In this document: positions 33,535 through 60,697 of the stretch, one piece after another | Layout of the letters: each line of letters opens with the position of its first letter | How positions within the stretch are numbered: the stretch's first letter is position 1 | Notes under the pieces: model-generated | The model's input: the letters and a program-made list of their open reading frames with translations, nothing else | Told to the model about the DNA's origin: nothing | Databases searched by the model: none | Position numbers and translations under genes: made by a program | Assembly: GCA_019038695.1 (NCBI GenBank) | Contig: JAHOYZ010000004.1 | Location: 1-64,000, forward strand | DNA: 64,000 nucleotides | Direction of reading: 5' to 3' | Source of the DNA: Candidatus Zixiibacteriota bacterium | GTDB lineage: Bacteria; Zixibacteria; MSB-5A5; GN15; FEB-12

Positions 33535-34749
33535 TTACTTGGCGTCGCCGGTTGCGTGGCCATGCATTTTCACTTCGACCTTCTCAGTCAGAGAACCGTA
33601 GTACTTGCGCAGGATAGCTAATACTTCCGCACGACTGAATTCGGCCGGAACGTCGCCACCTTCAGACAGAGACTTACGCAAAGCCGTTCCACTGAGGAAC
33701 AGACGATCTTCCTTCGCATGCGGACAGGTCTTCATCGAAGCCATACCACCGCACTTGTAGCACCAGAAAGTCCAGTCGATCGGAAGCATCTTGCACTCAA
33801 GAGCACCGTCCCAGAGTTTGAAGAAAATATCCTGGGCATCAAACGGACCATAATAGTCGCCCACGCCAGCATGGTCACGACCAATGATCATATGGGTGCA
33901 GCCAAAATTCTGGCGGAATACGGCGTGCAACAGGCCCTCGCGTGGACCGGCATAGCGCATATCGAGCGGGTATCCACCCTGTATTACACGTTCCTTGACG
34001 AAGTAATTCTCAACAAGCGTATTAATGCAGTTCACACGAACATCAGCCGGAATGTCGCCGGGTTTCAGCTTACCGACTAACTGGTGAATATACAATCCGT
34101 CGCTAACCTCAAGGGCGATCTTGGCCAGGTATTCGTGCGAACGGTGCATTGGGTTACGAAGCTGTAGCGCGGCGATCGTTGTCCAACCATTGTCTTCAAA
34201 TATCTTGCGGCTCTCAGCAGGACGCTGGTAGCTGCCCTTGAACTCGGTTGGGAAATAGCTCTCGGAGAGAACTTTCACTGGACCAGCCAGGTTGAACTTC
34301 TTCTGTTCCATGACCATCTTCACACCCGGATGCTCCGGATCTGTCGTTGTGTAGACGTGCTTGCACTCGAACTCCTTGTCGATTTCATAGCACTCGGTCA
34401 CTTTCATCGTGCCCATAATCTCTTCAGTCTCTCCTGAGACCAAACAAATTTCGGCACCGGCATCGATTTTGTCATCATGAGACAAAGTTACTGGAATCGG
34501 CCAAAAGATACCGTTGGTCATCTTCATGTCCTGACAGACACCTTTCCAGTCCGCTTCAGTCATGAATCCTTCCAGCGGTGTGAAACCACCAATACCCAGC
34601 ATAATCAAGTCGCCGGTTTCACGAGTGGTCATGACTACCTTGGGCAGTCCTTCGGCCTTCTTCAGTTCTGCTTCCTTCTCTTTTCCTTCGAGAAGCAGAA
34701 TCTTCAGAGTGTCACTCCCATGGGGAGAGATAAGTTTGCTGTTGCTCAT
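33535..34749 (-). CDS. sat: Sulfate adenylyltransferase (ATP sulfurylase)
   Basis: Activates sulfate with ATP to APS, the first step of dissimilatory sulfate reduction. Homo-oligomeric Sat signatures are present: [15 protein letters not shown] (the QxRNP and His active-site region) and [17 protein letters not shown] zinc-binding pattern ([15 protein letters not shown]) occurs near the C-terminus. At 404 residues it is of normal length and has no APS kinase domain. It is the first gene of the operon; a TGTGA-N6-TCACA palindrome and a GATACT -10 element lie upstream. Confidence 0.97.
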
Positions 34750-43010: not shown

Positions 43011-44716
43011 TACTCTGCTTCCTCGGTTTCGGGCAAGCCCGTGGTCCCGCCGCCCAATACGACGACGTTGTCGAATCCGGCTGTTTTCAGTTGCAATGCA
43101 GCCTGATACGAACGTGGCCCCCGGCGACAAAAAACCAGGATAGGCTTATCGTGATTAATCTTGTCCAAACCGTTCTTGAGGTCGCCTAGTTTTATATGGA
43201 GCAGGTCAGCGACATCAACCCCGACATTTATCGGCATGGCTTCCACTTCTGCTATCTCTCGTACATCAAGCCAGATGGCATTGGCGAATTGCACCAGACC
43301 TTCACCGGGGCCAACAAACTCCATTCCCTTCTCCTGCGCCAGCGCCATTCCGGCCAGGTGGTGTAACGGGTCGAGTGCCTCGCCATACGGAGGAGCGTAA
43401 CCATGTTCGAAATCAAGCAGATCATTGATGGTTGCTTTTCGTTGGAGAAAAGACGAGAATACATCGACCCTCCGGGTGATGTCGCCTTTCCCAACCGCTT
43501 GCAAACCCAGCAGTTGCCTGCTTTCGGTAGCGTAGACCATCTTTAGGAAAACGTTGTTGTTTTCCGGGTAATAATCCGGCTTATCGAGAAAAGCTCCCCA
43601 AACCGTCTGAATATCCATCCCATCGGCAACAGCCGCGCGTTCTGACAAACCCACAGCACCGACGTTAAGATCAAATATCTTCACTAGAAATGCACCCAGC
43701 ACACCTGGAAAAGACGCGTCGTTGCCCACGATATTCTCAGCAATAATCCGACCATGCCGATTGGCCAGAGAACCCATTGGCATAAACACTTCTTTACCTG
43801 TCAGTTGATGGATCGATTCCACACAATCCCCACCGGCAAAAATATCAGGATCGGAAGTCCGCATTTGCGCATCGACTCGAATTCCGCCGGTCGATCCGAG
43901 TTCAAGACCGCAACCCGAAGCAAGTTCTGTCATCGGCTTAACGCCCAGACACATGAACACATAATCGGAATCTATGTCTTCGTTCTCAGATACGGAAATC
44001 GTAGCCTTGCCATCAATGACGGCTACTTTCTCGACCGTGGCTCCGGTCAGGACATTGATACCCTGCCCGATCATCTCAGCCTTCACCAGTGCGGCCATTT
44101 CAGGATCGAGTACGTATGGCAGAAGTTGATCTTCACGCTCAATCAATGTTGTCTCAATACCCCAGAGTCCTCCGGCAGCTTCGGCAACTTCACAGCCAAT
44201 GAATCCGCCGCCAATAATTGTAGCGGCCTCTATCTGTCCGGTCTGGGCCAATTTGCGAAACGTAATCGCATCTTCAGGACTCGTAAAGGTTCTGATATTG
44301 GGACCGTCATCAACCGAAAACGGTACCTTCGCTGCGGTCGCACCCGTAGCCAGCACCAATTTATCATAGCCGTGTTCAAATGTCGTCCCATTGGTAATCA
44401 TTCTGACCGTTACGATTTTCTTCGCCCGGTCGATGCTGAGCACTTCGGCTCCTGTGACCGCCTCGAAACCCTTTGTATTCTCAAAGAACTCCGCATCGCG
44501 AACAACGCCATACGACGTCAGGGTTAGTTTCTGAAAGTTGTCAACGTCACCAGACGCGAAATACGGCATCCCGCATGTCGCATAGGACAGTTGCTCTTCC
44601 TTCTGAAAGAGAGTTACCTTGACTTTCGGATTCCTTCGCATGAGGGTCGCTGCTGTCTTGGGACCCGCCGCAACACCACCAACAATAACTACATCTGATT
44701 TCGTAACTGAGTCCAT
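43010..44716 (-). CDS. CoA-disulfide reductase-like FAD oxidoreductase fused to a rhodanese domain
   Basis: Residues 10-450 are a class III pyridine nucleotide-disulfide oxidoreductase with the single redox Cys in SYATCGMPYFASG, FAD motif VVIVGGVAAGPKTAATLMRR and the NAD motif in TIIGGGFIGCEVAEAA. The C-terminal 110 residues are a rhodanese domain with active Cys in VFCRRGPRSYQ. Related fusions act as CoA-disulfide, CoA-persulfide or NADH-dependent persulfide/polysulfide reductases. GTG 44728 is an alternative start. The gene heads the hem operon and lies downstream of dsrP, suggesting a role in persulfide or elemental sulfur reduction beside sulfite reduction; this role is inferred. Confidence 0.85.
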   Translation of the reverse strand: MDSVTKSDVVIVGGVAAGPKTAATLMRRNPKVKVTLFQKEEQLSYATCGMPYFASGDVDNFQKLTLTSYGVVRDAEFFENTKGFEAVTGAEVLSIDRAKKIVTVRMITNGTTFEHGYDKLVLATGATAAKVPFSVDDGPNIRTFTSPEDAITFRKLAQTGQIEAATIIGGGFIGCEVAEAAGGLWGIETTLIEREDQLLPYVLDPEMAALVKAEMIGQGINVLTGATVEKVAVIDGKATISVSENEDIDSDYVFMCLGVKPMTELASGCGLELGSTGGIRVDAQMRTSDPDIFAGGDCVESIHQLTGKEVFMPMGSLANRHGRIIAENIVGNDASFPGVLGAFLVKIFDLNVGAVGLSERAAVADGMDIQTVWGAFLDKPDYYPENNNVFLKMVYATESRQLLGLQAVGKGDITRRVDVFSSFLQRKATINDLLDFEHGYAPPYGEALDPLHHLAGMALAQEKGMEFVGPGEGLVQFANAIWLDVREIAEVEAMPINVGVDVADLLHIKLGDLKNGLDKINHDKPILVFCRRGPRSYQAALQLKTAGFDNVVVLGGGTTGLPETEEAE

Positions 44717-44730
44717 TCTCTCCACCACAG

Positions 44731-44831: not shown

Positions 44832-45992
44832 CTAATGGTCAAGTAATTGCCGACGTACCCCCAGTGCGATCTTATACAAAACCGTCACCAGTAACGCGCC
44901 AACAGCATAAACTCCCAGCGTGATCATAACCTCCGGCATAGTAGGTGAATACTCGACAACCGCGCCCATCGGATTCGGAACAAAGCCGGTAATTATGAGT
45001 CCCATACCCTTGTCGATCCACAACGACATAAAAACGGCGACAGAGGCTACCGCCAAGACTGTGTGATTGCGACGCAACTTCGGCACGAGCAGCATCACCA
45101 GCGAGAAGACAGCCAGGATTATCGAAGCCCACATCCATGGCATCAGGAAAGTATGCTCTCCGATTCCCATGAACATATACTGGAAATGCGAAACGTGCTC
45201 AGGAATGTCACTGTACAGACCGGTGAATAACTCCATCAGCACCAGGAAAACATTTATACACATCGCATAGGTAGTGATTACCGCCAGCTTCTCGATCGGT
45301 TCTTTGCCGACATCGAACTTCGTCAGCTTCTTCAGCAACAGGCACAACAGAATCAGTAAAGCCGGACCCGCAGCAAAAGCCGAAGCCAAAAAACGAGGTG
45401 CCAGAACAGCCGTCATCCAAAACGGACGAGCCACCAGACCGGCATATAAAAACGCCGTTACGGTGTGGATGCTAACTGCCCAGGGAATCGAAAGGATAAT
45501 AATAGGCTTGATCCACTTCGGAGGTGCAACCGCCTTGCGTTCGGCCGACAGAGTGACAGCCGCCACCAGAGCGTTGATCCCCAGATAGCCGGAAAGAGCA
45601 ATGGTGTCCCAGAACATCGGGGAACTCGGCGACGGATGCAGGAACACATTGAGGATACGGAACGGCTGTCCCATATCAACAAAGATGAACAGCATACACA
45701 TAGTAACCGAGCCAATGGCCAGAAATTCTCCAAGAATGGTTATTTTGCCAAAAGCCTTATAATTGTGCAAATAGTACGGCAGTACAACCATCACCGCTGA
45801 AGCTGCCACTCCAACCAGAAATGTAAACTGGGCAATGTAGAAGCCCCAGGTAACATCACGGCTAAGACCGGTTATGCCCAATCCTTCACTGAACTGCCTC
45901 AGGTAGAAGAAAGTACCTACACCGATGACGGCTCCCAGAAGTATCAGCCAGCCCCAGTATTTCTTATCTCCATAAAGTGCTTTTTCTATCAT
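44832..45992 (-). CDS. dsrP: DsrP, NrfD-like integral membrane subunit of DsrMKJOP
   Basis: A 386-residue polytopic protein of the NrfD/PsrC family with about ten predicted helices, beginning MIEKALYGDKKYWGWLILLG. It is the second quinone-reactive membrane module of the complex, partner of DsrO and DsrJ. GAGGAA sits just before the start and overlaps the dsrO stop, indicating translational coupling. Order dsrM-K-J-O-P matches known operons. Confidence 0.94.
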   Translation of the reverse strand: MIEKALYGDKKYWGWLILLGAVIGVGTFFYLRQFSEGLGITGLSRDVTWGFYIAQFTFLVGVAASAVMVVLPYYLHNYKAFGKITILGEFLAIGSVTMCMLFIFVDMGQPFRILNVFLHPSPSSPMFWDTIALSGYLGINALVAAVTLSAERKAVAPPKWIKPIIILSIPWAVSIHTVTAFLYAGLVARPFWMTAVLAPRFLASAFAAGPALLILLCLLLKKLTKFDVGKEPIEKLAVITTYAMCINVFLVLMELFTGLYSDIPEHVSHFQYMFMGIGEHTFLMPWMWASIILAVFSLVMLLVPKLRRNHTVLAVASVAVFMSLWIDKGMGLIITGFVPNPMGAVVEYSPTMPEVMITLGVYAVGALLVTVLYKIALGVRRQLLDH

Positions 45993-45999: not shown

Positions 46000-46800
46000 T
46001 CACACTATATAGTAGATTTCGGGGTTGGTTCCAAGGCCAGGCTTACGCCGGATGGTGTAATGCTCGGCCAGCAGAGCACGAACTTCGGACTCAGCATCCT
46101 CAAGATCACCAAAGACAAGAGCTTTCGCTTTGCACGCCTCCACACATGAGGGAAGCTTGCCAACCGCCAGACGTTCATCGCAGAAGGTACACTTCTCGAC
46201 TACGCCACGCTCACGAGTTGGGAAATTGGGATCAATCTTATCAATATGTGGCCGTGGATCGCGCCAGTTAAAGCTTCGCGAGCCATACGGACAAGCGGCC
46301 ATACAGTAGCGGCAACCGATACAACGATGCCAGTCCATCATTACAATACCATCCTGCTCCCGTTTCCAGGTCGCCTGAGTTGGACAGACTTTGACACATG
46401 GTGGACTGTCGCAGTGATTACACATCACCGGCACATGGCTATGCAGAATATGTTCCTCAAGATGTTTGTGACCCAGTTCATGGAACGCTCCGTGAAAGCC
46501 CTCTTTCCAGATCCACTTGATCTCATCCTTTGGGTTATCGAACTTCGGTACGTTGTGCGTCAAATGGCAAGCCGCGACACAATCGGTACAACCTTCTTCG
46601 TGCAGACACTTCTTGAGGTCTACAATCATAGCCCAGCGATTACCGACCAGAGGCTTGCCATCACTTGGTGGTGATGCAGGTGTAGTTGTATCAACCATGT
46701 TCGAATCGTGTTGACCAAACAGCCTGACCGGGGCAGCGCTTACTAAACCCAGGGCAGCCAGCCCGGAGGCTTTGATGAATTTCCGTCGATCAATACCCAT
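46000..46800 (-). CDS. dsrO: DsrO, periplasmic Fe-S protein with Tat signal
   Basis: A 266-residue ferredoxin-like protein. The N-terminus MGIDRRKFIKASGLAALGLV is a twin-arginine signal. Cluster-binding cysteines appear in four sets (including C-NH-C-DSPP-C-VKV-C and C-IG-C-RY-C-MAA-C), typical of DmsB/HybA-like proteins. It transfers electrons between DsrP and the triheme DsrJ on the outer face of the membrane. The start shares one base with the dsrJ stop (TGATG); the longer frame to 46836 would bury the Tat signal. Confidence 0.95.
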   Translation of the reverse strand: MGIDRRKFIKASGLAALGLVSAAPVRLFGQHDSNMVDTTTPASPPSDGKPLVGNRWAMIVDLKKCLHEEGCTDCVAACHLTHNVPKFDNPKDEIKWIWKEGFHGAFHELGHKHLEEHILHSHVPVMCNHCDSPPCVKVCPTQATWKREQDGIVMMDWHRCIGCRYCMAACPYGSRSFNWRDPRPHIDKIDPNFPTRERGVVEKCTFCDERLAVGKLPSCVEACKAKALVFGDLEDAESEVRALLAEHYTIRRKPGLGTNPEIYYIV

Positions 46801-47183
46801 CACTGCACCTCCTTTGGATCGACATGACAGCCCCAACAGTACGGCTCGATACCAAGATAGTCATGGCACCGATTACAAAAGGCTTCCTTGTTGGTGTGAC
46901 AACCGAGACAGGTGCGAGTGAGACTCATCTCCACCTCGTGGCCATTTTGATCGACCGTCATACGCTCACCGTCGCGAACCACACAATCACGCCAATCGTT
47001 TAGCAGGTCCATGTGATTGGCCTTCATGTATTCTGTCTCCATCACGCATTCCTGCACCCCAACCGGAATCTCCAATTCAGGTACATAATCGGCTTGCCCT
47101 TCAGCAACGTTGTACCACACCGGAAAAGCAACTAGAGCCAGAAAAACAACCAGCCCGACAATTATCAGTCCTTTGTCATTCAT
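46800..47183 (-). CDS. dsrJ: DsrJ, membrane-anchored triheme cytochrome c
   Basis: A 127-residue protein with an uncleaved N-terminal helix (LIIVGLVVFLALVAFPVWY) and three haem c sites, C-LG-CH, C-NR-CH and C-WG-CH, clustered in the C-terminal 45 residues. DsrJ is the periplasmic haem subunit of DsrMKJOP. It overlaps dsrK by eight bases. Confidence 0.95.
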   Translation of the reverse strand: MNDKGLIIVGLVVFLALVAFPVWYNVAEGQADYVPELEIPVGVQECVMETEYMKANHMDLLNDWRDCVVRDGERMTVDQNGHEVEMSLTRTCLGCHTNKEAFCNRCHDYLGIEPYCWGCHVDPKEVQ

Positions 47184-48795
47184 CCTCAGTTACCTCCATT
47201 CCGGGCAGAGGTTCCTGTCGCAAATCAGTGGTGCGTTTCTTCTCATCTTTCATAACCAATGCATTGCCTACGAGTTCGTGAAGCGCGCAAACTTCAACGC
47301 CAGGCACCCAGTACTCCAACAACGGTGGCAACGTAGCCTTGTCGATAGCACAGATGCAAGCCAGCATGTTCACATCATGTTTCTCCTGAACATACTTGAC
47401 AGCGTTAGCCCGTGGCAGGCCGCCACGCATACGCATCTCAAAATTCTCGTCGGTGCCAACTCCTGACCCACTACCACAGCAGAAAGTCTGCTCTCGGATA
47501 GTGTTGTCCGGCATCTCGAAGAAATTGTTGCAGACTGCATTCATAACATAACGGGGTTCATCGAGTAACCCCATAGCTCGCGCCGGATTGCACGAGTCAT
47601 GGAATGTCGCCCGAACATTGTCATTACGGCTCTTGTCGAGTTTGATCTTCTTGTGCTTGATAAGATCAGCCGTAAACTCTGCGATATGAACCATCTTAGT
47701 CGAAGAGGCATTCTCGAAACGAGTCCCCGTGATCGGCGACACTGGCGCTTCGAGAAAATCGGCCGGACCGTTCATGGTGTCCATGTACTGGTGTAACACA
47801 CGCCACATATGACCACACTCAGCGCCAATGATCCACTTAACACCAAGACGTTTGGCTTCCATGTAAATCTTTGAGTTGAGACGCTTCATCATGTCGGATG
47901 AGTGAAACAAACCAAAATTGCCTCCCTCGGAAGCAAAGGTGCTAAAGGTATAATCCAACCCTATCTCATGGAACAACGACATATAGCCAAGAAAACCGAA
48001 GTAGTGCGGATCGCCAAAGTAGTCAGCCGATGGCACCACAAACAGTATCTCCGCGCCCTTTTTATTCACAGGAGCGTCGACACGGACGCCAACGATCTCT
48101 TCGAGATCATCAACCGCAAAATCAACGCTGTCCTTGAATCCATGCGGCTGGATACCCAGGTGATTGCCGGTGCGAAAACAGTTGGCGGCCGGGGTAGAAA
48201 TCCAGTCGATGTCCAGACCCAACAGATTCAACAATTCCCGGCCCATCATCGTGATCTCAGCCGTGTCGATTCCGTAAGGACAGAAAACACTACAACGGCG
48301 ACACTCGGTACACTGGTAGAAGTAGGAGAACCACTCCTTAATAACATCCTTTGTGAGTTTTCTTCCTCCAGCCAGTTTGCCAAAGATCTTACCAACCGTT
48401 GTGAAATCGTTGCGATAAATCGAGCGCATCAATTCGGCGCGCAAAACCGGCATATTCTTGGGATCACCGGAACCGATATAGAAATGGCACTTGTCGGCGC
48501 AGGCTCCGCAACGCACACATATGTCCATAAACACCTTCAGGGAACGGTATTTGTCGAGGCGTTCCTTGAAACCGTTGCGAATGATTTCCTCCCAGTTGTC
48601 AGGTAACTGCCAGTCGTCATCAATAGGCTGCCATTTCTTCGAAAACGGCTGACCCAGATAAGCGGTACTGGCCGGAACAGCCCCATAGTTGTAGATCCCC
48701 CTGCGGAACTCTACTGTTGGGTCCATCCAATCCCTGGAGCCAGGATTGTAATCTACTTTTGCCAGTTCTTCTGGTGGGATAACTTTGTCAGCCAT
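47176..48795 (-). CDS. dsrK: DsrK, HdrD-like catalytic Fe-S subunit
   Basis: A 539-residue cytoplasmic protein related to heterodisulfide reductase HdrD. Two [4Fe-4S] motifs (C-VR-C-GA-C-ADK-C and C-TE-C-RR-C-SVF-C) precede CCG-type motifs (FHDSCNPARAMG and FCCGSGSGVGTDE) that hold the non-cubane-like cluster. It is thought to reduce the DsrC trisulfide/disulfide with electrons from DsrM. It starts two bases after dsrM. Confidence 0.95.
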   Translation of the reverse strand: MADKVIPPEELAKVDYNPGSRDWMDPTVEFRRGIYNYGAVPASTAYLGQPFSKKWQPIDDDWQLPDNWEEIIRNGFKERLDKYRSLKVFMDICVRCGACADKCHFYIGSGDPKNMPVLRAELMRSIYRNDFTTVGKIFGKLAGGRKLTKDVIKEWFSYFYQCTECRRCSVFCPYGIDTAEITMMGRELLNLLGLDIDWISTPAANCFRTGNHLGIQPHGFKDSVDFAVDDLEEIVGVRVDAPVNKKGAEILFVVPSADYFGDPHYFGFLGYMSLFHEIGLDYTFSTFASEGGNFGLFHSSDMMKRLNSKIYMEAKRLGVKWIIGAECGHMWRVLHQYMDTMNGPADFLEAPVSPITGTRFENASSTKMVHIAEFTADLIKHKKIKLDKSRNDNVRATFHDSCNPARAMGLLDEPRYVMNAVCNNFFEMPDNTIREQTFCCGSGSGVGTDENFEMRMRGGLPRANAVKYVQEKHDVNMLACICAIDKATLPPLLEYWVPGVEVCALHELVGNALVMKDEKKRTTDLRQEPLPGMEVTEDE

Positions 48796-48797
48796 AG

Positions 48798-49796
48798 CTA
48801 CTCCTTCTCCAGAGGAAGCCCGGCTTCCTTCATGACATCCCGGAATTCATCCTCGTACTCTTCATATGTGTGAAGCTTGACTTTCGGATTCCAGGGATTG
48901 ATGTGTCGACGAACACGGTTGTTATTGGCAAGATTGCGTGTTGGACTAAGAAACACACCGCCCATGTGCATGAGCTTGGAGATCGGGAAATACGCCAACA
49001 GACAACTAACCAGGAATAGATGGATAAAGAACATGACACCAATTCCGTCCGGTATGACCGGGTTGAAACTCATCAGCCCCATGGCGAGTTCCTTAACGGC
49101 AACGATGTCAGTTTTGGTGAAATACCGTAACAGAACCCCGGTTGTGGTGATGCCAAGCAATAGGAATAATGCAAGATAGTCGGCCACCAACGAGATCGTG
49201 CGCATCTGCGGAATAAAAACCCGACGCAAGAAAAGGTACGTCAGAGCACCAACAACAAATATATCAGTTAGATACAGGATGGGTAGCCCAACTTGAAAGA
49301 AGCCGTCCAACTCCCCAACGATAGCAATCACAGCCGGTACCGGCTCGGTGAAATACCTAAAATGTCTGATCAGGATGACCAAAAACGACCAGTGGAAAGC
49401 CAACCCGGCCACCCATAGCCACAGGTTCGGGCCGTATCCAATCTTCGGTCCCTCGCGAAGCTCACTGCTCGTGTTGCGCATAAGGGATCGGAAACAGAGC
49501 ACTTCAAGCGCCATTCGACCAACCGTCCCAAGAAAACTGTGGGGGTTGTCGAGCTTGGCTGATTTGATCCAGGGCAGACTTTTCTGCTGCCCGCAACTCG
49601 TCGGTATCCGGAAAGGAACCGGCGATGCGGCCCAGTGTAAGATGCGATAGACGATGCCAACTACGAAAAGACCCAGGCCGGCATACGGCAGAATTACACC
49701 AAAAAGAAAGCGTAGATCTGCCGTTCCGACACCAAGCCAGGCAACGACTACCAGGGCCAGTACGACGAAAAAGGCAATAACGGCATTCATCGGCAC
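48798..49796 (-). CDS. dsrM: DsrM, NarI-like cytochrome b subunit
   Basis: A 332-residue membrane protein with six predicted helices. Haem-ligand histidines are expected in LAFHWSFLVILIRHFRYF and MFFIHLFLVSCLLAYFPISKLMHMGG, as in NarI/HdrE-type cytochromes. It oxidises menaquinol and feeds DsrK. The preceding RsbRD_N gene ends at the base before its start, so the two are coupled. Confidence 0.94.
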   Translation of the reverse strand: MPMNAVIAFFVVLALVVVAWLGVGTADLRFLFGVILPYAGLGLFVVGIVYRILHWAASPVPFRIPTSCGQQKSLPWIKSAKLDNPHSFLGTVGRMALEVLCFRSLMRNTSSELREGPKIGYGPNLWLWVAGLAFHWSFLVILIRHFRYFTEPVPAVIAIVGELDGFFQVGLPILYLTDIFVVGALTYLFLRRVFIPQMRTISLVADYLALFLLLGITTTGVLLRYFTKTDIVAVKELAMGLMSFNPVIPDGIGVMFFIHLFLVSCLLAYFPISKLMHMGGVFLSPTRNLANNNRVRRHINPWNPKVKLHTYEEYEDEFRDVMKEAGLPLEKE

Positions 49797-50357
49797 CTAC
49801 CTCCCCGAAGACTGTTTATCCGAAGCGGGATCATTTGTATCATGTTCCTCCTGCTGATGGGGACTGCTTAATTTGCGCGAACCTGGCATGTACTGGAAAC
49901 GGCGTTTGATTTCGTTGACTCGGATTTCACTCATCTGGTCCCTGCACTTCATATATTGGTCAAAGGCCAGAAGAACCAGACGGTCTATACGATCATCCAG
50001 TTCAGAAAGCTCCTCCGGTTTAGTCGTTTCCCAACCACATCCGGCAATCGTTTCGCGGATCGCTCGTTTGAGCGAAAAGACAAAACCGACCGCTTCGGAG
50101 GCAGTAAACTCCTGTACGGTTCTAATGCGTACGATATTGTTCAGTGATTTTTCAACCTGATCGGAGAAATTGTCGGTCAAGATACAATCAAGAAGAACTC
50201 CAGCCTCGGTAGAAACAGTATGTCCAACCGGATTGCTGAAGCGATTAGACTGTTCGACAAGAAAGCGTTTGCTCTGGACGGGGTAGGTCTCCACGATCAA
50301 CCGCACCCAGTGCTCCAGAATTGATGTCTTCTCATTAGCCAGCAGTTCTGACAACAT
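49797..50357 (-). CDS. RsbRD N-terminal-like domain protein between dsrC and dsrM
   Basis: About 186 residues, all helical, beginning MLSELLANEKTSILEHWVRL. The pattern of a helical bundle with W-x-x-x-I-V-E-T-Y-P near the start and AVGFVFSLKRAIRE in the middle resembles RsbRD_N, a globin-like non-haem sensory fold. Such genes occur upstream of dsrM in other dsr-bearing genomes from memory. The C-terminal tail is polar and probably disordered. No DNA-binding or STAS domain is attached. GTG 50399 is an alternative start. A role in sensing or assembling the Dsr complex is inference. Confidence 0.65.
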   Translation of the reverse strand: MLSELLANEKTSILEHWVRLIVETYPVQSKRFLVEQSNRFSNPVGHTVSTEAGVLLDCILTDNFSDQVEKSLNNIVRIRTVQEFTASEAVGFVFSLKRAIRETIAGCGWETTKPEELSELDDRIDRLVLLAFDQYMKCRDQMSEIRVNEIKRRFQYMPGSRKLSSPHQQEEHDTNDPASDKQSSGR

Positions 50358-50413
50358 CTCGTTAGTTTCCCAAGCACGACTAGAACCGTGCGATTGCACA
50401 AGAACAATAGAAC

Positions 50414-50462: not shown

Positions 50463-50780
50463 TTACACACATCCGGTCGGTTTGGCTAAACCGGCAACCT
50501 TACAGGCACCCTTGGCGGGACCCGACGGAAAGAGCTCATAAACCTTCTTCAACGGGAAGCCGGTTTCTTTACAGAGCTTGCGGATCATCGGTGCAATACC
50601 GAATTTCTGCCAGTAGTCTCTGAGGTAGTTGACCAGTTTCCAGTGTTCTTCCGTCAAATCGCCAACACCTTCAGTACTGGCTAAAGCGAGAGCAATACGC
50701 TCATTCCACTCTTCCGGATTCTCCATGAAGCCATCTTCATCAACTTCAATTTTGACTTCTTCCCATTCAAATGTAGCCAT
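50463..50780 (-). CDS. dsrC: DsrC, sulfur carrier for dissimilatory sulfite reductase
   Basis: A 105-residue protein with the conserved C-terminal arm FPSGPAKGACKVAGLAKPTGCV. Both functional cysteines are present: one penultimate and one 11 residues earlier. This separates true DsrC from TusE and single-Cys homologues. DsrC accepts the sulfur of sulfite from DsrAB as a trisulfide and is reduced by DsrK. The open frame reaches 50801, but AGGAGG seven bases upstream selects ATG 50780 (MATFEWEEVKIEVDEDGFM). Confidence 0.96.
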   Translation of the reverse strand: MATFEWEEVKIEVDEDGFMENPEEWNERIALALASTEGVGDLTEEHWKLVNYLRDYWQKFGIAPMIRKLCKETGFPLKKVYELFPSGPAKGACKVAGLAKPTGCV

Positions 50781-50841
50781 CGAAAAACCTCCTGACGACA
50801 AACAATTATTGTGAATCTATCTGTTGTTTCCTTTAGAATTC

Positions 50842-52521
50842 CTATCGTAAATCAATAAATCCGCACGGGCAGGCTTCTCCACACTTCTTGCAGCCCTTGC
50901 AGAATTCCATCTTCGCCGTATATGGATCTCCCTTCACCAGAGGCTTGACTATGGCATTATCCCCGCAATAGCTCCAGCATGTACCGCAGTCAAAACACCG
51001 GCCACAACTCAAGCACCGCTTGGATTCTGCTGTCGCCTCTTCTACGGTGAGAGTGGTGACAATCTCAGCATCCATTGTTTTGAGCCGTTCATCAGGAGCC
51101 ATCTCACCGATCTTGACCCTGTCTTTCGCTTCATAGTAGGCCATCGCCATTCCCTCGGACGTGATCAACTTCTGACCGTCCGCGGGATCAACAGTAGCCT
51201 CACCGGTGATCATCTCATGGATAGATTCGGCAGCAAAACGACCGTGAGCTATCGCCGTAACAGCGATATCCAGATTGACATTATCTCCACCGGAATACAC
51301 ACCATCAATCTTGGTCTTGAACTTGTCATCGACCTTGATCCAGTCACGACCTTCAATGAAGTCCTCGAAACCGGTGAAGTCGGGGGCCTGAGAAATAGCC
51401 GCTATCAAGGTAGACATTTCCAAATCGAATGTGTCGCCCTCTATTGGCACCGGACGACGACGCCCTGAAGCATCCGGCTCACCCAGCTCCATGCGTTGAC
51501 ACTTCATGCCAACAGCCTTGTCGCCATCCTTATTAATCTCAATCGGGGCGGCCAGGTAGTGAATCTTTATGCCCTCTTCAATCGCCCCGTCAATTTCGGG
51601 ATCAATGGCGGGCATTTCTTCACGGGTGCGACGATAGAGAATCGTTACTTCAGCGCCGAGACGACGCGAAACACGCGCAGCATCAACGGCTGTATCACCA
51701 CCGCCGATTACGACGACGTGATCTCCGACATCAATGGTCTCGCCGTTATTGGCACGGTGCAGAAAGTCAGTCCCGGTGAATACATTCTTGGCGTCCTCAC
51801 CCTCAACCCGAAGTAAATATCCTTTGTGAGCACCAAGGCCAACAAAGATAGCCTTATAATCTTTTTGCAGATCGGTGTACTTGACGTCGTTACCGATCAT
51901 GGTGTTGAGCTTTAGCTCCACACCCATATCGCAGATGCGATCAATCTCTGCATCGAGGATGTCGATTGGCAAACGATAATCTGGAATACCGTAGCGAAGC
52001 ATTCCACCAGCCTTGGGGAAAGCCTCAAAGACAGTCACCGGGTAGCCGCGTCGGGCGAGGTGATAAGCGGCCGTCATTCCGGCCGGACCGGAACCGATCA
52101 CAGCAATTTTCTCCGAGCGAGTTTCCTCGGTGACCTTCTTAGGTACCAGCTTGTTCTTCAGTCCGTAATCACCCAGGAAGCGTTCAAAAGCATTTATCGA
52201 AACCGCACCTTCTAACTTGGTGCGGTTACAATCCGTCTCACACGGATGCGGGCAGACGCGTCCGCATACCGATGGGAACGGGTTCTTCTCCATCCACATG
52301 TGCCAGGATTCAGTTAGCGCCTGGTCACTTGATTTTTCATAATCTTCGCCCTTGGAAATGTTCATCAGAGCTCTTCTGATCGGATTATGATTCGGACAGT
52401 TGCTTGTGCACGGCGGCCGTTTCTCTACGAAATACGGTCGAAGATCACTCTCTAGCGTACTTCCACCACCGGTCCCAACGCTTCTGGTACGCAGTGTTTT
52501 CTTCTTCTTCAGTAGACCCAT
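50842..52521 (-). CDS. dsrL: DsrL-like NAD(P)H-dependent Fe-S flavoprotein (GltD family)
   Basis: A 559-residue GltD/NfnL-type oxidoreductase. Residues 35-140 hold the N-terminal Fe-S helical domain (C-TSN-C-PNHNP, C-GRV-C-PHP-C-ETD-C). FAD and NAD(P) Rossmann motifs follow (IAVIGSGPAGMTAAYHLA, VVVIGGGDTAVDAARVS). The C-terminus bears a two-cluster ferredoxin (C-RC...C-GT-C, C-KG-C-KK-C-GEA-C). DsrL of sulfur oxidisers is longer and passes electrons between DsrAB and NAD(P); relatives occur in some reductive dsr clusters. Position between cbiA and dsrC supports the name, but the substrate specificity is unproven. Confidence 0.78.
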   Translation of the reverse strand: MGLLKKKKTLRTRSVGTGGGSTLESDLRPYFVEKRPPCTSNCPNHNPIRRALMNISKGEDYEKSSDQALTESWHMWMEKNPFPSVCGRVCPHPCETDCNRTKLEGAVSINAFERFLGDYGLKNKLVPKKVTEETRSEKIAVIGSGPAGMTAAYHLARRGYPVTVFEAFPKAGGMLRYGIPDYRLPIDILDAEIDRICDMGVELKLNTMIGNDVKYTDLQKDYKAIFVGLGAHKGYLLRVEGEDAKNVFTGTDFLHRANNGETIDVGDHVVVIGGGDTAVDAARVSRRLGAEVTILYRRTREEMPAIDPEIDGAIEEGIKIHYLAAPIEINKDGDKAVGMKCQRMELGEPDASGRRRPVPIEGDTFDLEMSTLIAAISQAPDFTGFEDFIEGRDWIKVDDKFKTKIDGVYSGGDNVNLDIAVTAIAHGRFAAESIHEMITGEATVDPADGQKLITSEGMAMAYYEAKDRVKIGEMAPDERLKTMDAEIVTTLTVEEATAESKRCLSCGRCFDCGTCWSYCGDNAIVKPLVKGDPYTAKMEFCKGCKKCGEACPCGFIDLR

Positions 52522-52631
52522 GCTGCAACTCTTTCTCTTAATGTTTCCATATTCGCCAGGGCTAAATCCACCCTTATAAAACTTTTGGTCCGACCTCGCT
52601 TAAGGAATCGAACTTCAAATCAATTTCAATT

Positions 52632-54089
52632 CTAAATACCGGCAGCTATTCTGACCTTTTTCGTTCGCCTATCATCCTCCGCAGGAGTTCGTTTTGTCTC
52701 CGAGTCATTCACCCGGTGACGTTCCGATGCGCGTGATACCATAGCCCGCGCCCAGTCCTTCACACCAAGAGCGTGAAGGTGCGTATAGAGCGCGAGTGTG
52801 TTCTTCACCATCAGGCCATCACGACTATTCCCAAGTCCGGAGCCTCTTGTCATCGCGGCACAACCCGCATCTGCCTTGAGTGCTGAATCGGGGCCAGTGT
52901 AGTGAAATTCATGTCCCTTGAGAACCGCACCAATGTTAAAAAAGGGATTAGCACGGTCAATCAGCAATTCAGTATAGCCATGTCCGAACGGCTTTTCGTG
53001 CATCTCTAAATCAATATCGAAAACACCAGCCATCGGATACGTCTGCTTCCGCCACATAAGCGACCGGCAGAGATATATCAGACCACCGCATTCCGCGTAG
53101 ACAGGAAGCCCTCCCAACGCCGCTTTGCGAACCGATTGCATCAACGATCGATTGGCTGTCAGTCGTTCGGCATGCGTTTCGGGAAAACCACCACCAATAT
53201 ACAGTCCATCAATATCCGGTAGCTCATGATCAACCAGCGAAGAAATTGGAACCAACTCAGCACCACATGACTCGAGAGCTTCCAGGTTCTCAGGATAATA
53301 GAAAGTAAATACCGAATCCCTGAACACTCCGATCCGAACCTGTCTGGACGTCTTGACTTCCTTGACCTCTGATGGACTCTCCAACGGTGCAGCCGTCATG
53401 GCTATCTCAGTTAAGGCATCAACGTCCAGATAACGCTCGGCAATCTCAACCAGCCGATCGGTCAGACTCGAATCCGCATCATACTCAGCGGGTGTAACCA
53501 GCCCAAGATGACGACCCGGAATAAGGCGAGCCTTTTCTTCCATCTTGGGAATGCATCCCAGGACCGGGATTCCACAATACTGTTCTATTGAATCAGTGAG
53601 AACCCGCTGATGCCGCTTGCCGGCCACGCGGTTAAGAACAACCCCGGTGATGTTCACTCGGGAGTCAAAATCACGACAGCCATTTATCATGGCGGCTACG
53701 GTTCGAGTCACTTTGGTAGCATCGATGACTAAAACCACCGGAGCATCCAGCAACTTAGCCAACTCGGCTGTGCTGTGGGTGCCGGTAGTATCTTTGCCGT
53801 CGAAAAGACCTCGATTGCCTTCAACTACAGCGATCGCATTCGATTGAGTGTGACTCACAAACGAGTTGCGGACCTCTTCCTCGCTCACCATGTAGGTGTC
53901 GAGATTGCGACAGGCACACCCCGCCGCAAACGATAGCCAGGCGGCATCGATATAATCCGGCCCTTTCTTGAACACACTGATAGCCTGCCCCCGGCGGCCA
54001 AGGGCCGCCAGGAGACTAAGGCTAACAATTGTTTTGCCGGAATCGCCGGACAAACCGGCGATTATCAAACGCGGAACTTTCACACTCAT
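52632..54089 (-). CDS. dsrN: Cobyrinic acid a,c-diamide synthase-like amidase (DsrN)
   Basis: A 485-residue CbiA/CobB-family enzyme: P-loop LIIAGLSGDSGKTIVSLSLL, FKKGPDYIDAAWLS, and a C-terminal triad glutaminase domain with nucleophile Cys in VYAECGGLIYLC and a downstream His in GHEFHYT. In dsr clusters the homologue DsrN is thought to amidate siroheme to the siroamide used by DsrAB. No other cobalamin genes are nearby, which favours that role over corrin synthesis. It lies between dsrD and the dsrL-like gene. The last 35 residues are a charged tail. Confidence 0.9.
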   Translation of the reverse strand: MSVKVPRLIIAGLSGDSGKTIVSLSLLAALGRRGQAISVFKKGPDYIDAAWLSFAAGCACRNLDTYMVSEEEVRNSFVSHTQSNAIAVVEGNRGLFDGKDTTGTHSTAELAKLLDAPVVLVIDATKVTRTVAAMINGCRDFDSRVNITGVVLNRVAGKRHQRVLTDSIEQYCGIPVLGCIPKMEEKARLIPGRHLGLVTPAEYDADSSLTDRLVEIAERYLDVDALTEIAMTAAPLESPSEVKEVKTSRQVRIGVFRDSVFTFYYPENLEALESCGAELVPISSLVDHELPDIDGLYIGGGFPETHAERLTANRSLMQSVRKAALGGLPVYAECGGLIYLCRSLMWRKQTYPMAGVFDIDLEMHEKPFGHGYTELLIDRANPFFNIGAVLKGHEFHYTGPDSALKADAGCAAMTRGSGLGNSRDGLMVKNTLALYTHLHALGVKDWARAMVSRASERHRVNDSETKRTPAEDDRRTKKVRIAAGI

Positions 54090-54114
54090 GGAAGCCAGCC
54101 TTCAAAGAAGCGGA

Positions 54115-54360
54115 TCAGTCGTTGGCTGCCCCTTCCCTATGTGGTAGTTCCAGGTAGCTTCCACCAAAATAGGTATAGACCACGCGACCTGAATTAACCA
54201 GCGATTTGATAGCTTCTTTGCAGAGCTTCTTGTCGCACTCATCTTCACCGAATAACTGAATCATCGCTTTTCTCAGATCCATCGGTTTCAGTTTCTTCAG
54301 ACCTTGAGCGTCACTGACCATTTTGAACATGGCATCTGCAATTTCATCAACGGTCTTCAT
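54115..54360 (-). CDS. dsrD: DsrD, winged-helix protein of reductive dsr clusters
   Basis: An 81-residue protein (MKTVDEIADAMFKMVSDAQG onward) with the DsrD pattern including KKLKPMDLRKAMIQLFGE and SGRVVYTYFGGSYLELP. DsrD allosterically stimulates sulfite reduction by DsrAB in work I recall, and its presence is used as a marker for the reductive pathway. It starts 11 bases after dsrB. Confidence 0.94.
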   Translation of the reverse strand: MKTVDEIADAMFKMVSDAQGLKKLKPMDLRKAMIQLFGEDECDKKLCKEAIKSLVNSGRVVYTYFGGSYLELPHREGAAND

Positions 54361-54371: not shown

Positions 54372-55451
54372 TTAGAAGGTTAGGTGGGTTGACCGCTTAA
54401 ATGTCAGACCGGCATGTTTGAAGTCATCAATATGTGTCTTCTCAAACGGGATACCGGACATCTTGAAGAACTTCGGCCAGCCAATGCGTTCAATCCACTC
54501 ACCCATACGTTCATACGGACGAGCGTTCGCTGCCCACAGCTCCACCAACTTCCGAATAGCGATTGTAACTTCCGGCCAGCGCGGTGGATTATTGGGAAGG
54601 AACGGAATAGCGAGCTTCGAGAACATCGGTTCGTGCCGAGCATTCGAAACCTTGCCACCGACCCAGATGGAAATACCATCAGTTTTTGGATCATTCAATG
54701 GCATCGACGGACACACTGTGAAGCAGTTCGCACAGAACATGCAGTTCTCTTCGATAACCTCGACCGACTGATGGCCGTCCACAGTAGCGGGACGGATTGC
54801 ATTGGTCGGGCAGGAAGCTACTACACTGGGAATCTCACACTGCTTCTTAAGCATTGAGTGATTGGTGACAGGTGCATGAGTATGAATACCAAGAATGGCG
54901 ATATCCGAACAGTGCACAGCACCGCACATATTAAGGCAACAGGCCAGAGCGATACGCAGCTTGGCCGGCAATTTCTCTTCCGTAAAATACTCGATCAGGT
55001 CGTCCATCACAGCCTTGACGATACCAGAGGCATCAGTTGCGGCGGAGTGACAATGAACCCAACCCTGGGTATGGACAATCGACGTAATCGACTTACCAAT
55101 ACCACCAACCGGATGACCCAACGCGGCCAGGTCGGCGATGATCGGATCGATATTCTTCTCATCTGTTATCAGGAACTCGACATTGTGACGACTGGTGAAG
55201 CGCAGATGGCCACCACAGTATTTGTCAGCAAGGTCACAGTATATCCGAATCTTATCGACCGAGATCAGACGACCCGAGGCTGCCCGGACCGTGTAAAGTT
55301 TTGCACCACTTTCGGAGACATGAACCATGACTCCGCCTTTGATGATCTCATGATATTTCCACTTGCCGTAGTTTTCTTTAATGATTGGCGGCAAGAATTG
55401 CTCGTAATGTGGCGGGCCATAGTCTGTCCGCCGTTCATGTGTCTCTGCCAT
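54372..55451 (-). CDS. dsrB: Dissimilatory sulfite reductase beta subunit
   Basis: A 359-residue siroheme/[4Fe-4S] subunit. The sulfite reductase repeats ([20 protein letters not shown]) and the siroheme cluster motif ([14 protein letters not shown]) are present, followed by a ferredoxin domain [11 protein letters not shown]. It forms the catalytic heterotetramer with DsrA, reducing sulfite with DsrC. Located 59 bases after dsrA. Confidence 0.97.
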
Positions 55452-55510: not shown

Positions 55511-56695
55511 TTACTCGCCTTCGTCTTCGCCGTAGAACACATAAGGATTTTCACGCGGATGAGCAACCATCTCAGGAGTCGGTTCTAAACCGATTGCTTC
55601 GAGGAAATTACCCATGCCTACACGCTGAATGAACTCACCAACGCGTTCACGGTTCTTACCTTCATCTCCCCAAATATCCCAGATAGCCTCTACGAGTTCC
55701 TTAAGATCCTCGTAAGGTGCTTCCATCTTCATAAACGGAATCATCACGGACGATAGCAAAGCGCCCTCGACAATCGGAGCCTTCGAGCCTAGAAGAATCG
55801 TAGCACCACGGTCCTTACCAGGACGCAGAGCCTTCGGCATCACGTTAATACAATGCATGCAACGAACACAGAACTCATTGTCAATACTCAGTTTGTCACC
55901 ATCAAGCCTCATGCACTTGCCGGGACAGTTGACAATCACATCGTTGACTACATCAAGCCCACCATCGATGTATTCCTTTACGGCCGCCTGATCCATCTGG
56001 ATGTCATCGCGCCAGGTACCGATAATGGACAAGTCGGCACGAGCAATCGAAGCCACACAGTCATTCGGACAACCGGACATCTTGAACTTGAACTTATATG
56101 GGAATGGCGGACGGTGCATTTCGTCCTGATAAGTCATGGTGAGGTCATGCGTGAGAGCCATTGTGTCGTAGCAGGCCCACTCGCAGCGCGATTGACCAAG
56201 GCAACAACTGGGAGTACGAACATCTGATCCCGAACCACCAATATCGAAGTTGATCTTCTGAAGATCGTCAAATATCGGTTCCAGCTGGTCCGTCGTTGTA
56301 CCCAGCAGGATTATGTCACCGGTTGAGCCGTGCATATTGGTCATACCAGAACCACGCTTCTCCCAGATGTCACAGATCTGACGGAGAGCTTCTGAGGTGT
56401 AATACCAACCAGCCGGTTGGTTAATACGCATGGTATGGAAGTGGGAAACGCCAGGCCATTCTTCGGGAAGGTCCGAATAACGACCAATAACGCCGCCGCC
56501 ATAGCCCATCACACCGACGATACCGCCGTGTTTCCAGTGGCCGATTCCTTCGCGATATGATTGTTCCAACTGACCCAGAAGATCGCGAGACATGGGGCTA
56601 CGCTTAGCCGCCGTCTTGATCTCCTTAACGAAGCTTGGCCAAGCCCCCGTCTCCAATTCATCAAGCATGGGGGTTTTCGGTAGTGTGTCAGCCAT
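55511..56695 (-). CDS. dsrA: Dissimilatory sulfite reductase alpha subunit
   Basis: A 394-residue subunit with the siroheme-proximal cluster motif ([17 protein letters not shown], then [19 protein letters not shown]) and an inserted ferredoxin domain [27 protein letters not shown] and the N-terminal [24 protein letters not shown] are conserved in DsrA. It is shorter than the Desulfovibrio protein (about 437 residues). It leads the dsrABD-N-L-C-MKJOP unit and is preceded by a 480-base regulatory gap. Confidence 0.97.
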
Positions 56696-57121: not shown

Positions 57122-57151
57122 AAAAAAAACCCTCCGCTAATGCGGAGGGTT
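57122..57151 (-). terminator. Rho-independent terminator of qmoAB
   Basis: Minus-strand AACCCTCCGC, loop ATTA, GCGGAGGGTT, then a run of eight T residues. It lies 25 bases after qmoB and separates the qmoAB and dsr transcription units. Confidence 0.93.
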
Positions 57152-57175
57152 CTGTAGTAACATCGAATCTGACTG

Positions 57176-59419
57176 CTACAAGTCCTTATACGGGTTAGGT
57201 CCGACTGTTTCCATTACCTCCAGGAAGTCATCGAAAATACCCGGAATCTTGTCGAAATCCGAGATGGATAGCTCATGAACTTCAACCCTCTCTTCTTCAA
57301 GCACAAGTTGCTTGAGCTTATCACGTACATTCTCCATACGATAAGAGGCCAGTTCTGAGCCTTTTACAAAGTGACACTGATAATCGTCACCCTTCTTACA
57401 GCCAATAAGAATCACACCATCGAATCCGCTGGCCAGAGCATCACTGATCCAAACCGTGCTCATCGATCCCAAGCAACGGATTGGTATGATCCGTAACATG
57501 GCATTGTATTTCTGACGCTTCAGAGCCGACATATCAATCGCCGGCAGAGCATCGTTTTCGCAGATAAAAACAAGTATACGCGGTTTCTCGTCGAACTCAT
57601 CGGGCATAGAAATCGACTTGATCATCTGCGAGACCATGTTGATGTTGAAATCCTTGAACGACACGATACGCTCAGGACAAGCACCGAGACAAACACCACA
57701 GCGACGACAACGGAATGGGTTTGGCTTGGGTGTCCCCTTATCATCCTCATCCAACGTTCCAAACGGGCATTCCTCAGTACAACGCTTACACTGAGTGCAT
57801 CTCTGGAAAAAGAAATCAGGGAATCCGGCATCACCTGAGCGGGGATGTACTGCGACGCCTCTGGCGCAGGACTCAACGGCCTGGATAGCCTTCATGGTCG
57901 CGCCGTACGCATCATTAGTAGCGCTGGCAAAGTCCATCGGCACACGAACTGCACCCGCGGCGTAGATACCAGTGCGACGAGTTTCATACGGGAAACAGAC
58001 AAAATGCGAATCAGGGAAACCATATTTGAGGGTTGGCAGATCGGTACCCTGGCGGTAGGTTAGATTTAGAATGCGAGCACCCTTTTCTGCACCGGCAGCT
58101 TCCTTCTTGCCATCACTCGTTTCGCCTTCAGGAGTAGCTTCCTCGACTGCGTTTTCTGTGCCATCCGCATCCTCAGCACCTTCGTCCTCGACCTTGGTGG
58201 TAGGAACCATACCGGTAGCGAGAACAACCATGTCGGCATTGATACTGATATCCTCACCGAGTAGAGTCTCGGACACTTCGACATTCAATTTACCGTCATC
58301 ACCCTTGGAAACAGATTCCAATTCGCCTTTGGTGAAAAACACCGCATCATCATCCTGCACCGCAGCATAGAACATCTCGAACTGTTGCGGCGACCGAACA
58401 TCTTTGTATACCACGAACACCTTGGCGTTGGGATACTGCTCACGTACATACTTGACCTGCTTCAGTGATACTCGACAGCAAACCGCCGAACAGTATGGCA
58501 AATGTTCCTGATCGCGCGAACCGGCACACTGCAAAAATACAACGCTCTCAACATCCTTGCCGGTAGACGGGCGCTTGATGCTGCCGTTGCTTACCATCTC
58601 TTCTAACTCGATATTGGTAACCACATCAGGAGAAACGCCATAACCCCAGTTGCTGAGTTTATCCGTCTCATACGGTTTCCAGCCACTGGACAGAATAATA
58701 GCACCCACCCGATGCGTTTCCTGGGAACCGTTGTTCATCGTTACGTCAAACTGGCCTGGCTGGCCCGCCGTCTTCTCAATAGTTGTTGAGGTGTGAATAG
58801 TAATATTCTCACTCGACGTAACAGCCTTAACCAATTCTTCGCACCCAATAGTAACCGGCTGATCATAGGGCGGCTGTTTGGGAAAACCCTTAGTGAACTT
58901 CCTGGCCCAACCACCAAGCTCGGCTTCTTTTTCCACGAGATGAACCTTGTAGCCTGCATCAGCAGCAGCATTGGCCGCTGTCATGCCGGTCATGCCACCA
59001 CCAACGACCAGAATATCTTTGCTCGTTTCCTCAATATGAGGTTCAGGAACTTCAGTAGTCTCAACACGGGCGATCCCCATGGCGATATAGTCCTCCGCCA
59101 TCGTTTGCGTGTCTTCATCATTTGGCTCGTGCGTATAAGTCACATACTCGCGAATAGGAACGCGGTCGGTGAGGATATCGCCACCAAACTGGAACATCTC
59201 TGGGAAAACACGGGCCGAGCACGCAGCTACAATAACTCGGTTGAGACCTTCGGCTTTGATATCGTCTTTGATACACTTTATGCCTTCCGGCGTGCAAAGG
59301 ATATCATGAGTTTTACAGACCACGACTTTGGAAGCATTCTCTTCTACCAACTTGTCGCAATCGAGGGATTTGCCAATCTCGCAGCCCTTGCAAATATAGA
59401 TGCCAATCTTCGTATCCAT
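57176..59419 (-). CDS. qmoB: Qmo complex subunit QmoB (HdrA-like with MvhD-like domain)
   Basis: A 747-residue FAD protein. Residues 135-165 hold the FAD motif LVVGGGMTGMTAANAAADAG, then HdrA-like regions (VVFLQCAGSRDQEHLPYCSAVCC). A ferredoxin domain with C-TQ-C-KR-C-TEE-C and C-RR-C-GV-C-LGA-C lies near 560, and a C-terminal MvhD-like domain (about 600-747) carries a [2Fe-2S]-type pattern. Residues 410-450 form an acidic Glu/Ala/Asp-rich insert (ATPEGETSDGKKEAAGAEKG) that breaks the conserved core. It starts three bases after qmoA. Confidence 0.95.
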   Translation of the reverse strand: MDTKIGIYICKGCEIGKSLDCDKLVEENASKVVVCKTHDILCTPEGIKCIKDDIKAEGLNRVIVAACSARVFPEMFQFGGDILTDRVPIREYVTYTHEPNDEDTQTMAEDYIAMGIARVETTEVPEPHIEETSKDILVVGGGMTGMTAANAAADAGYKVHLVEKEAELGGWARKFTKGFPKQPPYDQPVTIGCEELVKAVTSSENITIHTSTTIEKTAGQPGQFDVTMNNGSQETHRVGAIILSSGWKPYETDKLSNWGYGVSPDVVTNIELEEMVSNGSIKRPSTGKDVESVVFLQCAGSRDQEHLPYCSAVCCRVSLKQVKYVREQYPNAKVFVVYKDVRSPQQFEMFYAAVQDDDAVFFTKGELESVSKGDDGKLNVEVSETLLGEDISINADMVVLATGMVPTTKVEDEGAEDADGTENAVEEATPEGETSDGKKEAAGAEKGARILNLTYRQGTDLPTLKYGFPDSHFVCFPYETRRTGIYAAGAVRVPMDFASATNDAYGATMKAIQAVESCARGVAVHPRSGDAGFPDFFFQRCTQCKRCTEECPFGTLDEDDKGTPKPNPFRCRRCGVCLGACPERIVSFKDFNINMVSQMIKSISMPDEFDEKPRILVFICENDALPAIDMSALKRQKYNAMLRIIPIRCLGSMSTVWISDALASGFDGVILIGCKKGDDYQCHFVKGSELASYRMENVRDKLKQLVLEEERVEVHELSISDFDKIPGIFDDFLEVMETVGPNPYKDL

Positions 59420-59422: not shown

Positions 59423-60697
59423 TTACTTCCTCCCCCCGGCTATGATGGCCTTAAGCGCAGCTCCGGTGGCATCCTGTATTGAGGCCGAAACCTCGAAAGG
59501 ACGATGGACAGTCCCGGCCCCAATTACCCCCTGGTTGCTAGGAACAATGAAGCCAAACTCATCCTGGACTGTGTCCAGAGGCGGCTTGTCATCAGCAGTA
59601 TTGGGCACCATACCCACTGCCAGGACAGCCATATCTACCTCTGTCTTTGTTATCTCACCGGTCAATGTATTCTCAGCTTCCAGAATGACATTCTTGTTGG
59701 CCGGGTTCTCAGTAATAGCACCAACCTTGCCGCGATGGAAATGCAGTTTCTCATCTTCCTGGCTCTTGACATAGAAATCCTCAAGACGGCCTGGAGAGCG
59801 AACATCAATATAGAACAAGTGTACGTCGGCTTCAGGATACTGCTCGCGGATATAGGTAGCCTGCTTCATCGAAGCCAGACAACACACCGCCGAACAATAC
59901 GGCAGGTGGTTCTCATCACGTGAACCAGCACACTGAACGAATCCAATACTTTTAATCTCACCCTGATCTGAAGGGCGAACAACCTTACCGTCCGTCGGGC
60001 CAGTCTTGGAAGCCAACCGCTCCATCATCAAGTTGGTGACAATGTTGTCGTACTTACCATATCCCAGATTATCTATCTTGGATGCATCGTAAGGTTTCCA
60101 TCCAGTCGCCCAGACAACAGCTCCGACCTTAATCGTTACCGTGCGAGGTTTCATTTCAAGCTCGATAGCGTCGTATTCGCAGGCCTCGGCACATTTCTTC
60201 ATCCGTTCGTCACCGGCAAACTCCGGATCAACAACGTAGTGTGGCGGGTAAGACATCAGGTGCGGCAGATAGACCGCTTTTGTCTTCTTCATGCCATAAT
60301 TGAAATCATCGACGCGCTCAATTTCGCACACTTCAGCGCACTTATCGCAACAGGTACAGCGATCATTCACAAAACGTGGATTGAGTGTCATCGTCACCGT
60401 GTAGTCGCCCGGCTTACCCGAAACATCAGTCACCTCGGCAAGCGTGAGCACCCGGATGTAAGGACTGACCCGTATTCTCTTAAGATTGATCTCAATGCCG
60501 CAAGTCGGCGGACATAGCTTAGGGAAATACTGGTTCATCGCGGCTACCCGTCCACCAAGTGATGGCAGTCGTTCTGCGAGGATCACATGTTTCTGAACCT
60601 CGGCCGTTTCGATAGCCGTCGTCATGCCGGCAATTCCACCGCCAACGACTAAGGTATCAGCCTTGATCTCATCCTGGACCGGTTCGTATTCGGCCAT
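59423..60697 (-). CDS. qmoA: Qmo complex subunit QmoA (HdrA-like)
   Basis: A 424-residue cytoplasmic FAD/Fe-S protein. TLVVGGGIAGMTTAIETAE is the FAD motif; PPTCGIEINLKRIRVSP, C-TC-CDK-C-AEV-C and IGFVQCAGSRDENHLPYC are HdrA signatures. With QmoB and QmoC it links menaquinol to APS reductase. AAGGAGAG precedes ATG 60697. Its start is divergent from the TudS-like gene. A TTGTGA-N6-TAACAA palindrome and a CATAAT -10 candidate lie upstream. Confidence 0.95.
   Translation of the reverse strand: MAEYEPVQDEIKADTLVVGGGIAGMTTAIETAEVQKHVILAERLPSLGGRVAAMNQYFPKLCPPTCGIEINLKRIRVSPYIRVLTLAEVTDVSGKPGDYTVTMTLNPRFVNDRCTCCDKCAEVCEIERVDDFNYGMKKTKAVYLPHLMSYPPHYVVDPEFAGDERMKKCAEACEYDAIELEMKPRTVTIKVGAVVWATGWKPYDASKIDNLGYGKYDNIVTNLMMERLASKTGPTDGKVVRPSDQGEIKSIGFVQCAGSRDENHLPYCSAVCCLASMKQATYIREQYPEADVHLFYIDVRSPGRLEDFYVKSQEDEKLHFHRGKVGAITENPANKNVILEAENTLTGEITKTEVDMAVLAVGMVPNTADDKPPLDTVQDEFGFIVPSNQGVIGAGTVHRPFEVSASIQDATGAALKAIIAGGRK

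Follow-up and report, generated by a model that had tools for sequence, protein, structure and literature searches.

A probable type 2C DsrL linked to dsrABD in a Zixibacteria genome and its predicted role in NADPH-dependent sulfite reduction

Results

A dsr gene cluster was analyzed in a 64,000-nucleotide stretch of contig JAHOYZ010000004.1 (the window), which derives from the genome of an uncultured Zixibacteria bacterium, 3.28 Mb in size and 96% complete. The cluster combines dsrAB with a dsrD-like gene and with a gene for a probable DsrL-2C, and it is highly likely to constitute the reductive sulfate or sulfite respiration apparatus of Zixibacteria, in which DsrL-2C would pass electrons from NADPH to DsrAB. 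Arrangements of this type have been published: Löffler et al. 2020 (PMC7596348) reported DsrL-2 in association with reductive DsrAB, Zixibacteria being among the groups that they name, Diao et al. 2023 defined DsrL-2C and reported dsrD with dsrL-2 in Zixibacteria (PMC10591310), and Hausmann et al. 2018 found dsrD, dsrN and a dsrL-dsrC pair in Acidobacteria lacking dsrEFH and tusA (PMC6018796). The present cluster is, therefore, not a new kind but a further genome of a published pattern, from which it showed no difference of kind. A first-pass annotation had pointed to the combination of dsrD with a dsrL-like gene; for this phylum it is not unusual, being the DsrL-2C pattern already published (PMC10591310, PMC6018796).

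The dsrL gene (50842..52521, minus strand; NF009410, 571.8 bits) encodes a 559-aa Fe-S flavoprotein, predicted to be an NADPH:acceptor oxidoreductase. It consists of an N-terminal ferredoxin domain, a flavin adenine dinucleotide (FAD) domain with an embedded NAD(P) domain, a linker and a C-terminal two-cluster ferredoxin domain (PF14691, PF07992 and a Cys-rich C terminus). The linker, with boundaries that we set ourselves, is 65 aa long, equal to that of DsrL linked to dsrAB(EF). The features by which Löffler et al. recognize DsrL were all present, in that the gene is complete, dsrAB occurs in the organism, the domains stand in the expected order and no ketoisovalerate or pyruvate:ferredoxin oxidoreductase (KOR or PFOR) genes are linked to dsrL. 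The nearest named relatives, with up to 84% identity, were from Candidatus Zixiibacteriota metagenome-assembled genomes (MAGs).

Two residue signatures were examined. The window DsrL carries a YRR motif at the NADP site (ILYRRTREEM), and the fourth ligand of its distal cluster is Arg (SDLRP), with Arg replacing NfnB Cys42 and Ser/Thr replacing Cys39. SxxRP together with YRR was found in all 16 DsrL sequences linked to dsrABD, while all 12 oxidative sequences linked to dsrAB(EF) had SxxCP and no YRR; the same split has been reported between DsrL-2 occurring with reductive DsrA and DsrL-1 (PMC7596348). As DsrL-2 of D. amilsii was active only with NADP(H) (PMC7596348), the window protein very probably, by analogy, feeds electrons from NADPH to the sulfite reductase. 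The proposal of the first-pass annotation that DsrL may deliver NAD(P)H electrons to DsrAB thus agrees with the published enzymes (PMC7596348), except that the motif predicts NADPH and not NADH.

A maximum-likelihood tree was constructed from dsrABD-linked DsrL, oxidative DsrL, GltA/Nfn/GltD and fused homologues; a search for DsrL-1A references among plasmids yielded PFOR-linked paralogues only. Oxidative DsrL was represented by 22 genomes of the Bacteroidota phylum in which dsrL follows dsrB, nearly always with dsrE and dsrF next, a gene order like that of green sulfur bacteria. The window DsrL was located within the clade of dsrABD-linked DsrL, which included the proteins of Ignavibacteria and of Omnitrophota SURF_12, the latter present in the 2020 listing of dsrL carriers (PMC7596348). 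Among the 30 best loci from 395 genomes of a phylum identified by its content as Desulfobacterota, no dsrAB-linked DsrL was detected. DsrL-like proteins from genomes of this phylum (L109 to L112) were the closest outside the dsr-linked clade; L109 adjoins KOR genes and L112 has no recognized partner.

Conservation of the cluster was then assessed. The order dsrABD-N-L-C-T-M was found again in approximately 25 Zixibacteria loci, with variants of this order in Omnitrophota SURF_12 (dsrL ahead of dsrA), one Planctomycetota MAG and two unclassified MAGs. Recurrence across Zixibacteria and other phyla indicated that the cluster is not a chance arrangement. Three loci labelled Latescibacterota or Thermoanaerobaculia (L039, L044 and L054) bear Zixibacteria-like dsr clusters, probably reflecting mislabelled MAGs or transfer. 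Co-occurrence was scored in 61 genomes, comprising the source genome plus 60 others from the same genus, family and order, using a DsrL match of E <1e-140. A match was present in 26 of the 27 genomes with dsrAB and in none of the 34 without; in the 27th (G057), the start of dsrL is present and the gene is cut by a run of N. One relative of the same genus (G001, 92% complete) has no dsrA, indicating that the pathway is unevenly distributed across the genus.

The gene after dsrB (54115..54360, minus strand) encodes an 81-aa winged-helix protein, identified with moderate confidence as a divergent DsrD and presumed to activate DsrAB. Its naming as dsrD in the first-pass annotation is backed by its position and by remote similarity, whereas PF08679, the Pfam DsrD family, matched neither this protein nor its relatives. 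Among 59 genomes of the Desulfobacterota phylum, PF08679 did detect DsrD in 27, mostly adjoining dsrB. The 81-aa protein is retained after dsrB, with a mean column identity of 75% over 17 aligned loci, and AlphaFold (AF2) modelled it as a single confident winged helix (mean predicted local distance difference test score, 91.7). The same type of protein, with a YTYFGGS wing, occurs after dsrB in Zixibacteria, Omnitrophota, Planctomycetota and two Desulfobacterota genomes, where it lies between dsrB and dsrN. In a third Desulfobacterota genome (L175:8581-9405), a DsrD-like winged helix is fused to a methyltransferase-like domain and a classical DsrD is also present.

The place of dsrD could instead have been taken by a small winged-helix protein with no relation to it, such as a regulator of the operon, a reading that is compatible with the DsrL assignment and that we regard as unlikely. 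Consistent with it, apart from the lack of a PF08679 match, were the 50 top Foldseek matches to the model, which did not include DsrD and whose best Protein Data Bank (PDB) entries were Fur and linker-histone winged helices; a PDB profile search with the protein gave chance matches only. Against it are the constant place after dsrB, a length similar to that of DsrD and an hhalign comparison with classical Desulfobacterota DsrD. This single comparison gave a probability of 86 and an E value of 4.9e-6, with none of 300 shuffles scoring as well, when the two dsrB-adjoining Desulfobacterota members and the fused relative had been added to the profile, and was weaker without these three. A more far-reaching suggestion, which we put forward very tentatively, is that these proteins form a separate DsrD subfamily, marked by the YTYFGGS wing and overlooked by Pfam, in Zixibacteria, Omnitrophota, Planctomycetota and some Desulfobacterota, which might activate DsrAB differently and perhaps govern pairing with DsrL-2 where DsrL occurs.

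The first-pass annotation had noted that dsrD and a dsrL-like gene occur together without dsrEFH. This was confirmed, as both genes are present on the minus strand and the interval from dsrB to dsrP contains no dsrE, dsrF or dsrH. Moreover, neither PF02635 (DsrE) nor PF01206 (TusA) had a match anywhere in the 96%-complete genome, both searches being positive in control genomes. Some dsr-bearing relatives do have DsrE-family proteins, encoded in each case on a contig that does not carry the dsr genes. A type II DsrEFH cluster syntenic with tusA has been reported in bacteria (PMC13293266); the lack of DsrE and TusA argues against this cluster too, the type II proteins themselves not having been searched for. 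The source genome contains one dsrA with its dsrB and no oxidative dsrAB, and the window DsrB grouped with DsrB of Desulfobacterota and other dsrD-bearing phyla, a branch with full support dividing this group from the oxidative set.

These results bear on whether the pathway could run in reverse, with DsrABL oxidizing sulfur and reducing NADP+ as in sulfur oxidizers with DsrL-2. Some established oxidizers do use DsrL-2 (PMC7596348), and dsrEFH is not strictly required, Desulfurivibrio being an example (discussed in PMC7596348). The reductive-type DsrB, the DsrD homologue, the Arg rather than Cys ligand and a genome devoid of DsrE and TusA nevertheless make this direction improbable. Least probable of all is that the DsrL is an electron-transfer subunit of the GltD/NfnL type, or one linked to KOR/PFOR, whose position among the dsr genes is incidental and whose partner is a different enzyme. 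The superfamily is shared and KOR-linked paralogues have equal length, both ferredoxin domains and YRR, but no KOR or GltB gene adjoins dsrL, which always accompanies dsrAB and is absent where dsrAB is absent. A KOR-linked identity was rejected on gene context. The tree separated the window DsrL from GltA/Nfn/GltD with support of 100/99, and also from fused homologues, while the grouping with NfnL/GltD enzymes that had been named beforehand as refuting the DsrL assignment was rejected when GltA/Nfn/GltD were forced together with it in an approximately unbiased (AU) test (p-AU 0.0068).

The remaining genes were assigned as follows. Read from upstream on the minus strand, the order is qmoA-qmoB-hairpin-dsrA-B-D-N-L-C-T-M-K-J-O-P, followed by a CoA-disulfide-reductase-like flavoprotein gene. 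NCBIfam equivalog cut-offs were passed by dsrA (55511..56695; TIGR02064, 588 bits), dsrB (54372..55451; TIGR02066, 493 bits; reductive type, as in the DsrB tree), dsrM (48798..49796; NF038037, 528 bits), dsrK (47176..48795; NF045796, 733 bits), dsrO (46000..46836; NF045797, 300 bits) and dsrP (44832..45992; NF045798, 458 bits), all on the minus strand, as are the genes that follow unless stated. The subfamily cut-off was passed by dsrC (50463..50801; TIGR03342, PF04358), the product of which ends in CKVAGLAKPTGCV and retains both functional cysteines (Cys-X10-Cys-X). The dsrN gene (52632..54089; TIGR00379, 447.5 bits) belongs to the cobyrinate a,c-diamide synthase family and is assigned to siroheme amidation, and dsrJ (46800..47183), for a multihaem cytochrome subunit, was recognized from its position, CxxCH motifs and synteny. 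The gene adjoining dsrM (49797..50399; PF14361) encodes an RsbRD_N domain protein and is presumably dsrT; a gene of this type ahead of dsrM is conserved in position, also in dsrABL(EF) loci. The flavoprotein gene (43010..44728) scored 362 bits with TIGR03385, below the cut-off, and was named from this and from synteny; its product has a C-terminal extension that appeared rhodanese-like by eye. A gene of this type directly follows dsrP in most Zixibacteria loci.

Upstream of the dsr genes are qmoB (57176..59419; HdrA2-like with FlpD, assigned by position and synteny) and qmoA (59423..60697; HdrA-like, assigned by synteny). A terminator-like hairpin of 12 bp with a T-tail (57126..57153) lies after qmoB and ahead of dsrA, which suggests that qmoAB is transcribed separately from dsr, whose transcript would start below the hairpin; Rfam had no match anywhere in the window. 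The window also contains sat (33535..34749; TIGR00339/NF003166), aprB (33014..33457; TIGR02060, 205 bits), aprA (31124..32995; TIGR02061, 905 bits), qmoC (35455..36648, plus strand; NF038018, 391 bits) and genes for siroheme synthesis, which together with the dsr cluster make up a complete pathway for sulfate reduction. The qmoC gene adjoins sat-aprBA on the strand opposite to qmoAB and approximately 20 kb from them, with the siroheme genes between.

Discussion

The reductive reading, in which DsrL-2C serves DsrAB, leads to the following scheme, modelled on published enzymes. DsrL-2C would take a hydride from NADPH onto its FAD and deliver to DsrAB the electron pair with which sulfite reduction begins. 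DsrC would accept the sulfur as a trisulfide, which DsrMKJOP would then reduce with quinol electrons, and the divergent DsrD may activate DsrAB. The first-pass annotation had regarded DsrL as a second electron input besides DsrMKJOP; this was not upheld, because in the established model DsrMKJOP acts on the DsrC trisulfide and not on DsrAB, so that DsrL would donate directly to DsrAB instead of sharing it with DsrMKJOP as a target.

Several points weigh against this scheme. DsrAB of the reductive type can operate in reverse in certain organisms (see PMC6018796 and PMC13293266 for discussion) and DsrL is reversible in vitro (PMC7596348); the reductive direction is, therefore, a prediction. YRR alone is not diagnostic, as KOR-linked paralogues and GltA/Nfn relatives carry it too. 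The placement against oxidative and reductive clades that the first-pass annotation had proposed as a check put the window DsrL with dsrABD-linked DsrL; the tree did not resolve monophyly of DsrL-2C with oxidative DsrL (89/88 for the wider group), and their union was not rejected by the AU test (p-AU 0.35). Finally, the predicted NADPH specificity and transfer to DsrAB, like the putative function of DsrD, derive from published enzymes of bacteria outside the Zixibacteria.

Published DsrL-2/2C proteins share with the window DsrL the domain order, YRR, the Arg ligand and linkage to reductive dsrAB and dsrD. The acidobacterial cluster (PMC6018796) has the same dsrABCDNTMKJOP, sat, aprBA and qmoABC genes, the dsrL-dsrC duo and no DsrEFH or TusA; it differs in belonging to another phylum and in its DsrD, which was reported to share hydrophobic residues with D. 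vulgaris DsrD, whereas that of the window is only remotely similar. The DsrL-1B-like proteins of dsrABL(EF) loci in the Bacteroidota phylum match the window DsrL in domain order, in the length of the linker and in the partner enzyme encoded next to them but differ in their Cys ligand, lack of YRR, identity of approximately 37 to 40%, adjacent dsrEF and oxidative DsrB. Classical DsrD (PF08679) resembles the 81-aa protein in being a small winged helix encoded after dsrB, but the latter lies below Pfam detection and has the wing YTYFGGS in place of a motif like YWSSGST. Surveys relying on PF08679 would score such genomes as dsrD negative, and calls of metabolic direction could be misled.

The near-perfect co-inheritance of dsrL and dsrAB in Zixibacteria implies that DsrL belongs to the regular machinery of sulfite reduction in these bacteria and is not a leftover of sulfur oxidation. 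With this genome there is one more clear case, outside the classical sulfate reducers, in which sulfite reduction is predicted to be coupled to NADPH.

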